Below, in pieces: positions 14,559 through 17,953 of a DNA stretch of 64,000 nucleotides (its first letter is position 1; the number at the start of each line of letters is the position of its first letter). The notes under the pieces are model-generated. The model was not told the DNA's origin and did not search any database. It worked only from the letters and a program-made list of their open reading frames with translations. The position numbers and the translations under genes are program-made. The DNA is from an uncultured Eubacteriales bacterium (lineage in GTDB: Bacteria; Bacillota; Clostridia; Christensenellales; Aristaeellaceae): the NCBI GenBank assembly GCA_902793325.1, contig CADBCY010000002.1, positions 1-64,000 of the forward strand. Reading direction: 5' to 3'.

Positions 14559-14831
14559 GAAAAACAGACCGATGTCTGTACAGACTCCAGTCTGTTTGTG
14601 TTGTAGAATGCGGTCTTCGCGCCCGACCTGGTCTTTGACCCCACACTCGCCTGCTGGGACGTTCGCTCCTAAGGACTCTGCCTCCCCACTACTGGCCCTC
14701 TCAACGAAAGAATTGTGTTGGCAGGACTTACATCTAAGCCGCACCATGCTCACCGGGACTTTGCCCGGCTTACGTGGATCGTTTCGCCTGCGACTGGCAT
14801 CGACTTTCAACCACGGACGCGCGAAGACCGC
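14559..14831 (-). ncRNA. Structured small RNA with own promoter and terminator (raiA-motif or 6S-like candidate)
   Basis: Transcription would start near 14831, just after a strong promoter. The 5' end (14819-14831) is perfectly complementary over 13 bases to 14610-14622, closing a body of about 220 nt. Inside are nested stems: CCGGG/CCCGG in TAAGCC/GGCTTA in GCAGG/CCTGC. Single-stranded-looking segments such as AGGAGCGAACGTCCCAGCAG follow. A hairpin ACAGACatcgGTCTGT plus TTTTT ends it. No open frame with a ribosome site lies within. Not tmRNA, RNase P or SRP RNA by their conserved motifs. The raiA motif is my first candidate and 6S RNA the second; both are from general impression, not an alignment. 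Confidence 0.7.
14564..14595. promoter_or_regulatory. Paired 16-bp palindromes, ACAGAC-N4-GTCTGT
   Basis: Two directly abutting copies, ACAGACCGATGTCTGT (14564-14579) and ACAGACTCCAGTCTGT (14580-14595). The same motif occurs three times in front of cbiD (39349-39407). On the minus strand the first copy also forms the terminator hairpin of the ncRNA, so it may be an operator, a terminator or both. Confidence 0.45.
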
Positions 14832-14837
14832 GCTTCT

Positions 14838-14866
14838 ATTATAATGGAACCGCGCGGGAACGTCAA
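14838..14866 (-). promoter_or_regulatory. Promoter of the structured small RNA
   Basis: TTGACG (14861-14866), 17-base spacer, TATAAT (14838-14843) on the minus strand. The -35 overlaps the stop codon end of the GNAT gene. Confidence 0.85.
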
Positions 14867-15435
14867 GCCGGGTCCTGGGGATTCACGCGATAATCGCAGG
14901 CCAGTATGGCGTAGCAGGCGGTATCGCGGACGCCGTTTGCGCCCCGGAAGCCTTGCCTGCGAACGCCCTCGAAGGTCATGCCGATCTTCTGCATCACGCG
15001 GCCGGACTTCGGGTTGTCCACGTCGTGCTTCGCGGAGATGCGGTTCGCGCCCACCTCGTCGAACAGAAACGCCAGTATGGCGCGCGCGGCTTCGGGCATG
15101 AGGCCCTTCCCCCACCATTGCCGCCCCATGCACCAGCCGAGCTCCAGCTCGTCGATGCTCTCGTCAATGCGCACGACGGAGCAGCTGCCGATGGCCTTCC
15201 CCGTTTCCTTCAATTCCAGCGCCCAGTTATAATTGGAGGGATTTTCGTAATCGCGCACCCACTGTTCGATGATCCCCCGCGACACGTCGACGGATTCGTG
15301 CGGCGACCAGGTCATGTAGCGGCAGACCTCGGGGTCGTTGGCCCAGTTTGCGTACATCACCGGGGCGTCCTCCGCGACGTACCGGCGCAGTACGAGCCGT
15401 TCGGTCTCCAGGCTTTTCGTTCCACAGTGCCGCAT
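14863..15435 (-). CDS. GNAT-family N-acetyltransferase (RimJ/RimL type)
   Basis: Acetyl-CoA dependent acetyltransferase of 190 residues. The LETERLVLRRYVAEDA start and the acetyl-CoA loop around WWGKGLMPEAARAIL fit the Acetyltransf_3 group that acetylates protein N-termini or small amines. Follows metA by 14 bases and has GGGGGG in front, so it is likely co-transcribed with metA and shares its attenuator. The substrate is unknown. Confidence 0.85.
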   Translation of the reverse strand: MRHCGTKSLETERLVLRRYVAEDAPVMYANWANDPEVCRYMTWSPHESVDVSRGIIEQWVRDYENPSNYNWALELKETGKAIGSCSVVRIDESIDELELGWCMGRQWWGKGLMPEAARAILAFLFDEVGANRISAKHDVDNPKSGRVMQKIGMTFEGVRRQGFRGANGVRDTACYAILACDYRVNPQDPA

Positions 15436-15449
15436 GCCGATTCCCCCCT

Positions 15450-16367
15450 TTACTTGATGTTGTTCAGATCGTAGGGCGTGTTCTGGTACACGAAGTAGTT
15501 CAGCCAGTTGGAGTACAGCAGGTTCGCGTGGCCGCGCCAGGTGACCTGCGGGCGGCGGCTGTCGTCGTCGTCGGGATAGTAGTGCTTCGGCATGTCGATG
15601 GGCAGCCCTGCGTTCTTGTCCCGCAGGTACTCCTTCTCCAGCGTGTCGGCGTCGTACTCCGCGTGGCCGGTGATGAACACCTGCCGGCCCTGGTCGGTCG
15701 CCATGGCGTAGAGGCCGGCGTCCGGAGAGCTCGCCAGGATCTTCAGCTCGGGCACCTTCTCCACTTCTTCCCTGACGATGGTGGTGTGGCGGGAATGCGG
15801 CGCCATGAACACGTCGTCAAAGCCGCGGAACAGTATGGAGGACTTGCGCTCCACCATGTGCGGGAACACGCCGAACAGCTTCCTGTCCAGCCCCACCTTG
15901 TGAATGCCGAAGTGGTAGTACAGCGCCGCCTGCGCGCCCCAGCAGATGTGGAACGTGCTGTGCACGTGGGTCTTGCTCCACTCCATGATTTCGCACAGCT
16001 CGTCCCAGTAGTCCACCTCCTCGAAGGGCAGGTGCTCCACGGGCGCGCCGGTGATCACCATGCCGTCGAAGCGCCGCTCCCGCACCTGGTCGAAGGTCTT
16101 GTAGAAAGCCAGCATGTGCTCCTGCGACACGTTCTTCGACTCGTGGCTGCTGGTCTGCAGCAGCTCGAGGTCCACCTGCAGCGGCGTGTTGCCGAGCACC
16201 CGCGCAAGCTGCGTCTCGGTGACGATCTTGGTGGGCATCAGGTTCAGCAACAGGATCTGCAGCGGGCGGATGTCCTGGCTCATGGCCCGGTTCTCGGTCA
16301 TGACGAATATGTTTTCGCTCTCCAGCACATGGGTCGCGGGCAGGCTGTTCGGAATCTTGATGGGCAT
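15450..16367 (-). CDS. metA: Homoserine O-acyltransferase MetA
   Basis: First committed step of methionine synthesis, acylating homoserine with acetyl-CoA or succinyl-CoA. 305 residues, begins MPIKIPNSLPATHVLESENI; the catalytic Cys lies in FHICWGAQAALYYHFGI and the catalytic His/Glu in FITGHAEYDADTL. Which acyl-CoA is used depends on residue 111 and neighbours; many Firmicute MetA proteins use acetyl-CoA. Preceded by a Met-rich leader peptide and terminator. Confidence 0.95.
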   Translation of the reverse strand: MPIKIPNSLPATHVLESENIFVMTENRAMSQDIRPLQILLLNLMPTKIVTETQLARVLGNTPLQVDLELLQTSSHESKNVSQEHMLAFYKTFDQVRERRFDGMVITGAPVEHLPFEEVDYWDELCEIMEWSKTHVHSTFHICWGAQAALYYHFGIHKVGLDRKLFGVFPHMVERKSSILFRGFDDVFMAPHSRHTTIVREEVEKVPELKILASSPDAGLYAMATDQGRQVFITGHAEYDADTLEKEYLRDKNAGLPIDMPKHYYPDDDDSRRPQVTWRGHANLLYSNWLNYFVYQNTPYDLNNIK

Positions 16368-16399
16368 GGACGATCACTCCTCGATTTTGTCGGTCCAAA

Positions 16400-16434
16400 G
16401 AAAAGGAAGAAGCGCCGTTCGGTCCGCTTCTTCC
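16400..16434 (-). terminator. Attenuator terminator in the metA leader
   Basis: On the minus strand a perfect 10-bp stem GGAAGAAGCG/CGCTTCTTCC with a 10-base loop is followed by TTTTCTTT. It sits 28 bases past the leader-peptide stop and 33 bases before metA, so it can only act on the metA transcript itself. Confidence 0.85.
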
Positions 16435-16462
16435 CCGTGTATGCAGAGGTTTGCGACGCGAA

Positions 16463-16519
16463 TCAGGCCGGCTGCCGAAGCATTCCAGCCATGCACATGT
16501 TGACAATGCGACGCGTCAT
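16463..16519 (-). CDS. Methionine-rich leader peptide of metA
   Basis: An 18-codon frame, MTRRIVNMCMAGMLRQPA, starts 22 bases or so after the predicted transcription start. A strong AAAAGGAG ribosome site (16527-16534) stands seven bases from its ATG. Four of 18 residues are Met, three of them clustered with a Cys (M-C-M-A-G-M). A hairpin can form over the cluster (GGCTG with CAGCC) and a terminator follows. This is the layout of a ribosome-mediated attenuator sensing charged tRNA-Met. A weak alternative pairing, GCTTC in the leader with GAAGC of the terminator arm, could act as antiterminator, but I could not settle it. Confidence 0.75.
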   Translation of the reverse strand: MTRRIVNMCMAGMLRQPA

Positions 16520-16547
16520 AACGGCACTCCTTTTCCTCAATGCATAC

Positions 16548-16576
16548 ATTCTATACCATTTCCCCCGCGCTGTCAA
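16548..16576 (-). promoter_or_regulatory. Promoter of the metA leader
   Basis: TTGACA (16571-16576), 17-base spacer, TAGAAT (16548-16553) on the minus strand. The transcript would begin about 22 bases before the leader peptide start. Confidence 0.85.
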
Positions 16577-16590
16577 CCGGTGGGCAGGAT

Positions 16591-17953
16591 TTAACCTACG
16601 AGCCGCGCGCAGGCCCGGGCCAGTTCGTCCAGCGTGCCGCAGGGCAGCATGTCACAGTGCCGCCGCAGCCGCGTGACGCCGTTCAGGTACTGCCACTTGG
16701 CCTCGGGGATGGGGTTCATCCAAAGCACGGTGCCCGCCTGCTTCGCCGCGCGCACCAGCGCGCCCTCCGCGCGGTCCAGGTCCACGGACTTGGCGTCGCT
16801 CAGCACCAGCAGCACCGTGCCCGGCGTGAGCACCGCGGGGCTGGCGGCGAGCACGGCCTCCAGCGCGCGACCGGCATTCGTGCCCCTGCCCCACACTCCG
16901 GAGGAGCGGACGTAGTTTTGAAACAGGTCCATGTTCTCCAGCGCGAAGGGATTGACCCGCTGCACCTGCTCGGAGAACAGGAAGATCTCCGAGTGGTCCG
17001 AAACCTCCGACAGGGACTTGACGAAGCGTATGGCGAACTCGGAGAACTGCATCATGGAGCCGGACACGTCGCACAGCATCACGATGCGTTTCCTGCGGCT
17101 GTGGCGCTTTTTGTAGTGCAGCCTGCACAGCGCGCCGCCCGTGGAGAGCCCCGCGCGGATCGTCTTGCGGAAGTCCAGCGCCGCGGCGCGGCCCGCGCTC
17201 TTTCGCCGGGCGACGATCTCGCCGTTGATGCGCCGGGTCACCTGGTCGATGAGCTGGTGGGCCCTGGGGATGTCCGCGTCCCTGAAGCTGGAGATGTCGC
17301 GGTACATCAGGTCCGCGTCGGCATCCGCCTGCGCCGCGCCTTCGGCGGCGTCCTCCAGGATCATCTGCTGCTCCAGCAGGCTGCGCATGAACACCGAGCG
17401 GATAAAGCCCTCGTACAGCTTGGGCGCGTGTTCCATCTTGCCCGAGAATTTGTCCACGATCTCCTTCAGCCGGTCGCGCTCGCTCTGGGGCATGCGGGCG
17501 TACACGTCCTTGAGATCCTCTCGAAATTCGATGGGCTTTCCGTTCACGCTGAGGCGCTCTTCCATCTCCCGGCGCCGGGCCTCCAGCTCCGCCTCCGCCT
17601 GCGCCGCCGCGGCCATGTTGGCCTCGAATTGCTCGCGGGAGACGAAGAACAGGTCGAAGCAGCGATCGAAGGTCGCCTGCTCGCGCCGCGTGCCCGCCAG
17701 CAGCGCCCGCAGCGCCGTGCGCACGACCTCCCGGTCCTCGAGCCCCACGAGCATCAGCGCCCGCAGCGCGTCCTCCTCCTCCCGGATGCCCACGTTGAAG
17801 CCCTGCACGCGCAGGTAGTCCACGAACCGCACCAGCCGCTCCATGGGCGCGGCGTCTGCGGGCCGCTCATGGCCGTGATGGCCGCAGCCGCAGCCGTGCG
17901 CGCAGGCGCCGTCATGAGCGCTTCCGCAGTCGCAGCCGCCGCAATCGTGCGCG

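Follow-up and report, generated by a model that had tools for sequence, protein, structure and literature searches.

The metA gene of the window, i.e., of the whole stretch of 64,000 nucleotides that was analysed, is preceded by a short frame rich in Met codons and by an intrinsic terminator. Comparison with relatives and folding models indicate that this leader is probably a ribosome-mediated transcription attenuator of the trp/his type, by which metA would respond to the charging of Met-tRNA. The textbook regulators of bacterial methionine genes are SAM riboswitches, T-boxes and repressors. The logic of leader peptides is well known for tryptophan and histidine and hardly described for methionine.

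Layout and conservation of the metA leader

The elements of the leader and the two genes that follow it are all on the minus strand:

16548..16576, minus strand: sigma-70-type promoter TTGACA-N17-TAGAAT (sequence and promoter scan)
16527..16532, minus strand: Shine-Dalgarno sequence of the leader, AAGGAG, 7 nt before the leader ATG at 16519
16520..16537, minus strand: Shine-Dalgarno region, which can pair (16 bp) with 16419-16404, i.e., the end of the terminator loop and the 3' arm (folds and shuffles)
16463..16519, minus strand: leader peptide frame MTRRIVNMCMAGMLRQPA plus TGA, 18 codons (sequence; equal length in 6/6 leaders)
16481..16498, minus strand: control codons Met8 (16498-16496), Cys9, Met10 (16492-16490) and Met13 (16483-16481)
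16466..16490, minus strand: 1:2 hairpin GGCUGG..CCGGCC with inner UGC-UUCG-GCA (-14.6 kcal/mol in the window)
16455..16474, minus strand: region 2, i.e., the codons Q-P-A-stop and the bases after them, the antiterminator side in the relatives
16406..16433, minus strand: intrinsic terminator stem-loop GAAGAAGCG-N10-CGCTTCTTC, then CTTTTCTTT (sequence and folding)
16397..16404, minus strand: T-rich tract TTTTCTTT (sequence)
15450..16367, minus strand: metA, homoserine O-acyltransferase (acetyl type), with its ATG at 16367 and its own Shine-Dalgarno sequence
14863..15435, minus strand: GNAT-family acetyltransferase (PF13302), starting 14 nt after metA

The terminator stands between the leader frame and metA, the first gene, whose product matches PF04204 (5.5e-141) and NF047918 (homoserine O-acetyltransferase; 500.5 bits, above the cut-off of 460.5). 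Upstream of the leader, a VWA/CoxE-like gene is encoded on the same strand and ends at 16591. The promoter, the ribosome site, the 18-codon Met frame and the terminator before metA had been described in the first-pass annotation and are confirmed here. The whole 64 kb was scanned for a Shine-Dalgarno sequence followed by a frame that starts with ATG, spans 9-45 codons and contains M-(x)-M, and by a terminator within 110 nt: the metA leader is the single match, and none of 60 dinucleotide shuffles contains any. The terminator is absent from the output of the consensus terminator scan, probably because that scan permits loops of 8 at most (the loop here is N10). The fold stability of the whole leader is ordinary (z -0.39).

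A perfect 8-bp inverted repeat (TGTATGCA/TGCATACA, at 16548-16541 and 16445-16438) flanks the leader frame, and its first copy overlaps the last base of the -10. The window holds 2 matches of this repeat vs. 0.66 expected, a number equalled in 17 of 100 shuffles; no such repeat was seen by eye around the leader in the relatives.

Of the 28 same-genus genomes, 26 have metA (51 of 60 relatives overall). Upstream DNA is readable at 25 same-genus metA loci, L030 being left out with its metA start missing. The check proposed with the first-pass annotation, i.e., a search of relatives for the frame and its Met cluster, gave both in 6 of these 25 loci (the window's genome, G000, and G015, G023, G021, G024 and G019), while the other 19 have no such leader frame. 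When the pattern was searched in all 28 genomes of the genus, the same six were found, each with a single place, before metA; the reversed control pattern gave 0 matches in the 28 genomes. On the MetA tree the leader is clustered: at least 2 changes are needed, and 0 of 500 label shuffles are as low. The MetA branch of the window's genome is long on this tree (0.22).

The six leader peptides (MTRRIVNMCMAGMLRQPA, MTRNRRSMRMGRMPQQPA, MTRNRRSMCMGRRPKQPA, MARGIVNMCMRRRQRQPA, MTRNRFFMCMCRRQQRPA and MARFFREMYMCRWQKQPA) align without gaps, with 18 codons each and a Shine-Dalgarno sequence in 6/6. Residues M1, R3, M8, M10, P17 and A18 are invariant. Codons 4-7 and 11-15 vary; codon 9 reads C, R, C, C, C, Y across the six genomes, i.e., Cys in four and otherwise Arg or Tyr. 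Met13 of the window's leader is common to G015 only. The promoter was aligned by eye in the five leader-bearing relatives, where it reads TTGAC[AT] and TACAAT. The codons for P17 and A18 in the window differ from those of the relatives at the third base only, so that the amino acids are unchanged; this hints at selection on the peptide. Since ATG has no synonyms, a conserved Met codon and conserved RNA letters are indistinguishable within the metA set.

A further sequence, TTTAAAnCnTTGTAAAnCG, recurs just before TTTGACA, upstream of the -35, in same-genus metA promoters (L004, L008, L009 and L018). It occurs at metA loci both with and without the leader and is perhaps an operator or an UP-like element.

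Alternative pairings and the proposed mechanism

The first-pass annotation had not described an antiterminator. Such an element is clear in the five relatives and broken in the window, which may use its Shine-Dalgarno region instead. The frame, Met8 and Met10, the 1:2 hairpin and the terminator are present in all six genomes, the Q-P-A-stop antiterminator in the five relatives.

In these relatives the codons Q-P-A-stop (CAGCCTGCTTGA; CGGCCTGCTTGA in G024) pair over 9-10 bp with AAGCGGGCT(G), i.e., the inner part of the terminator 5' arm plus the loop. In alignment A1 (columns 69-77/117-125) the 9-pair helix is whole in the five relatives, and 4 of the 9 pairs are disrupted in the window's genome. 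Of all cells in these columns, 92.6% are paired, vs. 32-55% after the partner was slid by 1-3 columns. No compensatory changes occur in this helix among the six leaders of A1. When the upstream stretch was shuffled 500 times, a duplex as strong was obtained 2 times for G021, 5 for G024, 5 for G019 and 15 for G023, and at chance level for G015 (193) and the window (352); the helix thus exceeds shuffles in four of the five relatives. The competing 1:2 hairpin is found in all six leaders (-10.9 to -13.5 kcal/mol in the five relatives, and strongest in the window), its 5' side starting with the third base of the Met10 codon or immediately thereafter.

The effect of a ribosome was modelled by folding the RNA left free before the terminator 3' arm exists, a distance of 12 nt being assumed between the leading edge and the first base of the A-site codon. 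In the relatives, the modelled antiterminator energy is flat for A-site codons 8-12 (-21.8 to -28.3 kcal/mol), the structure is lost from codon 13 on, and -2.5 to -8.5 kcal/mol are left at the stop codon. The codon-10 fold energy is matched by 0 of 200 shuffles for G021, 1 for G019, 7 for G024, 8 for G023, 106 for G015 and 154 for the window's genome. The paired share of the terminator arm gave a weak result, with 11 to 70 of 200 shuffles across the six leaders. When the 3' arm is included, the equilibrium model gives a terminator probability of 1.0 in every ribosome state of the five relatives, so that the switch would have to be kinetic. In kinetic attenuation the antiterminator is formed before the terminator 3' arm is made.

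The window's own copy differs. Positions 16537-16520, which hold the Shine-Dalgarno sequence of the leader, can pair with 16419-16404 in a helix of 16 bp (-22.8 to -23.9 kcal/mol), matched by 3 of 1000 shuffles of the Shine-Dalgarno region and by 2 of 1000 shuffles of the arm. In the five relatives this helix is missing (-6.6 to -11.3 kcal/mol, chance level). It was first spotted in a fold and tested afterwards, and it is confined to one genome. The terminator hairpin forms in window folds beginning at the leader ATG or later; when the Shine-Dalgarno region is included, the 3' arm prefers that region. Without a ribosome, the equilibrium probability of the terminator is 0.04. It is 0.01-0.03 for a ribosome at codon 8, 10 or 13 and 0.02 for one at the stop codon when the start is empty, and it rises to 0.99 once a ribosome occupies the start codon. 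These models suggest that the Shine-Dalgarno region may be an alternative antiterminator in the window's copy, seen there alone; it would permit read-through also under poor ribosome loading for any reason, and with a ribosome at the stop codon while the start is vacant. This pairing, peculiar to one genome, differs from that of the relatives. The case for the metA leader is mainly a comparative one.

The proposed mechanism is thus as follows. Transcription would start near 16541, a position inferred from the -10, and a ribosome would trail the polymerase on the 18-codon leader. When charged Met-tRNA is scarce, the ribosome would wait with Met8 or Met10 in its A site, and Cys9 may contribute a cysteine input. 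In the relatives, the 1:2 hairpin would have its 5' side covered by the stalled ribosome; codons 16-18 would stay free together with the stop codon and capture the terminator 5' arm before the 3' arm exists, with read-through into metA. With ample Met, a ribosome at the stop codon would cover region 2, and the terminator would form. In the window, a stall at Met8 or Met10 would bare the leader's own Shine-Dalgarno region and block the next ribosome; the bare region would capture the terminator loop and 3' arm, whereas ribosome loading at the start codon would restore the terminator. Since such a stall would leave the Shine-Dalgarno sequence bare and bar the next ribosome, Met shortage would again favour read-through.

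Unrelated and sibling leaders

Met-rich frames were also searched upstream of metA in a wider set, in which 104 of 110 loci have a recognisable start and 5 of the 80 named loci come from genomes already in the first set. One locus of another phylum (L114, Synergistaceae UBA6101) has the leader MSKNSYTMMLMCCMMMRGSAFGVYNGSSRP with AGGAGG and a terminator before metA. Many other frames upstream of metA in the same scan, some with a motif like Shine-Dalgarno, seemed to be fragments or alternative frames of upstream genes. In the order of L114, metA was detected at E <= 1e-40 in 48 of 149 genomes; 30 loci were fetched, 29 of them with upstream DNA, and a leader of the MSKNSYTMMLMCCMMMRGSAFGVYNGSSRP type is found in five of the 29 (L228, which is the L114 genome, L229, L231, L232 and L233), with identical upstream sequence in L231 and L232. 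This type reads LMC(C/S)MMMR(G/R)SAFGVY.GSSR, is followed by a terminator before metA and is unrelated in sequence to the window's leader. Its antiterminator pairs GGAGTGCCTT with AAGGCAGTCC with one mismatch, and 6-17 of 500 shuffles are as strong in the four tested. The Met reading is thus supported by an unrelated Met-rich leader at metA in this order. Mere conservation of the RNA is unlikely, because two unrelated metA leaders both carry Met clusters. The Met-sensing attenuation proposed in the first-pass annotation is in this way supported both by the invariance of Met8 and Met10 and by the Synergistaceae leader.

Within the genus, weak leader-model matches led to a second type of leader, e.g., MMRSFRVENMCCMCRQRRPMPCR, in front of an amino-acid ABC binding-protein gene that belongs to SBP_bac_3. 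The best NCBIfam matches of this gene, all below cut-offs, are lysine/arginine/ornithine and cystine binding proteins. It is found in 18 of the 28 genomes, and (M/L)CC(M/F)xR leaders stand before 18 of 18 (L185-L202), the 18th displaced further upstream; the window's genome has no such gene at the cut-off used. The modelled antiterminators range from -21.8 to -35.7 kcal/mol in the 17 leaders folded. A swap control of own vs. foreign arms gave no separation (mean -28.0 vs. -27.1 kcal/mol), because the arms are alike. Among 8 distinct cores, changes on both sides occur in 3 of 7 pairs, two of which pair in 2-3 of 8 only. This leader is a candidate Cys/Met sensor.

Cys-rich leaders with a motif like Shine-Dalgarno, e.g., MIRVYNGKIYMCTSCVMRGRCCRARQTGNLPSPQA, are found before cysK in 5 of 25 loci (L203, L204, L205, L224 and L227), 4 of the 25 being without a recognisable start. 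In the window's genome, two cysK copies have readable upstream DNA, and neither showed a Cys leader. One cysK copy of this genome follows, as judged by eye, a gene like O-acetylhomoserine sulfhydrylase. Pieces of cysK lie at four contig ends of the same assembly (C10, C22, C27 and C31 of G000), as if two cysK copies had broken it.

Weak matches of model R1 in the genus were fetched at 28 loci (L047-L060 and L141-L154), and five of these have other Met/Cys leaders. A few further frames with scattered Met/Cys at such loci were taken for chance, and a weak match on C10 of the window's genome is a terminator without a leader. Among 396 genomes of the order, R1 has weak matches in 8 genomes outside the genus: two of these loci (L263 and L265) have frames with scattered Met/Cys at about 100-200 nt from the match, taken for chance, and the other six have none.

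A wider picture may tentatively be drawn, possible rather than probable: (i) the genus would have a regulon of leader peptides for sulfur amino acids, with separate attenuators for Met (metA), Met plus Cys (uptake of amino acids, perhaps cystine) and Cys (cysK); (ii) mixed clusters would add both tRNA charging levels; (iii) the SAM riboswitch would be kept for metK; (iv) the metA leader would have an independent origin in the Synergistaceae lineage; (v) in the window's copy, the antiterminator would have shifted from the frame's end to the ribosome-binding site of the leader itself, with occupancy of the start deciding on termination.

Competing explanations, known systems and the downstream gene

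Riboswitches and T-boxes control methionine genes in Firmicutes, and both types exist in the genus (SAM riboswitches in 23 of 28 genomes, T-boxes in 28 of 28), so that the leader frame might overlap one of them through chance. This is extremely improbable: Rfam models give no match to the leader up to E 10, the sole match of the search (E 6) being inside metA, and the leader fold is of ordinary stability. A covariance match to a SAM riboswitch or a T-box, the other check proposed with the first-pass annotation, is thus absent, and such an identity of the leader was rejected. At E <= 0.001 the window's genome has 19 T-box matches, some of which do not reach the cut-off; it has a single SAM riboswitch, which precedes a gene whose protein, judged by eye, looks like MetK. 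The supplies of SAM and of methionine thus seem to be sensed by different devices in the same genome. The genome of L114 has no SAM riboswitch. A sensor of Cys, or of Cys and Met jointly, instead of Met is unlikely, though the least so of these alternatives: Cys9 stands between both Met codons in four of the six leaders, and the genus has sibling CCMC leaders and Cys leaders at cysK, but Met8 and Met10 are invariant where Cys9 gives way to Arg or Tyr in two of six, and the product of MetA is a precursor of methionine.

The invariance of P17 and A18, and the changes at the third base only in the window although the RNA pairing there is broken, recall an arrest peptide. TnaC is such a peptide and senses tryptophan; the leader peptide would in the same manner respond, at its stop codon, to SAM or to free methionine. 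This explanation is very unlikely, since the antiterminator accounts for the conservation of Q-P-A-stop in the five relatives, residues 9 and 11-15 vary, and the metA leader resembles the Synergistaceae-type and binding-protein leaders in its Met/Cys cluster and not in its C-terminus. It is also rather unlikely that the window's copy is a decaying attenuator, in which promoter, frame and terminator are kept, the switch is lost and metA has a fixed level of read-through. The broken register with Q-P-A-side pairing at chance, the long MetA branch and the lack of the leader in most of the genus would agree with decay. On the contrary, the Shine-Dalgarno sequence, the frame length, Met8 and Met10, the 1:2 hairpin (-14.6 kcal/mol) and the terminator are kept despite divergence, and the new pairing of the Shine-Dalgarno region, far above chance, lowered a probability that had been slightly higher. 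Attenuation by the charging of Met-tRNA remains the preferred reading.

As in the trp/his/leu attenuators, a short frame with control codons, alternative hairpins and a terminator would here precede a gene for the same amino acid. The differences are the Met control codon, the metA gene, the occurrence in uncultured gut/rumen Clostridia and, in the window's copy, a Shine-Dalgarno region that may act as antiterminator. If the reading is true, (i) the amino acids that leader peptides with a terminator and an antiterminator can read would include Met; (ii) amino-acid sensing (metA) and SAM sensing (metK) are split within one genome; (iii) a compact test becomes available for whether two charging signals are combined by mixed Met/Cys clusters.

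His leader peptides occur in Firmicutes (PMC9413887; PMC2965389). Another close system is metL, a Met/Cys-rich leader (..CMCRRMC..) of metNIQ in Streptomyces lividans, proposed to be methionine-dependent (PMC8079986). It shares with the metA leader a leader peptide with a Met/Cys cluster and differs by its leaderless start, its transporter operon, its occurrence in Actinobacteria and, according to its authors, the lack of a typical Rho-independent terminator (PMC8079986). The first-pass annotation had called the layout unfamiliar for metA. This holds for metA itself: the open-access literature, with subscription journals mostly outside its scope, gave one proposed Met leader (metL) and none before metA; for methionine genes at large, metL is a precedent. 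A 2005 survey of Actinobacteria describes Cys leaders without obvious terminators at cys operons and found methionine operons to lack a conserved upstream RNA structure (PMC1262725). In Rhodobacterales, cysS is preceded by the Cys attenuator uORFC-8-2 with an intrinsic terminator (PMC8632094). These actinobacterial leaders, uORFC-8-2 and the mycobacterial polycysteine sORFs have in common with the metA leader sulfur-amino-acid codons in a short frame before sulfur genes; they differ in that they use Cys only and belong to other genes and phyla. In Xanthomonas, uncharged initiator tRNA-Met is bound by the SAM-I riboswitch of the met operon (PMC7270179): here also met genes respond to uncharged Met tRNA, but by direct binding and at the level of translation, and the abstract mentions no leader peptide. 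Initiator tRNA was also speculated to act on a streptococcal uORF before a folate gene (PMC11109978).

The GNAT gene follows metA in four of the six leader-bearing genomes. With this order kept and the distance of 14 nt in the window, its joint control with metA is plausible. Just downstream of the GNAT gene, at 14614-14827 on the minus strand, lies a raiA RNA (RF03072, 201 bits), the sole Rfam gathering match in the 64-kb window, together with a promoter-like TTGACG-17-TATAAT at 14866-14838.
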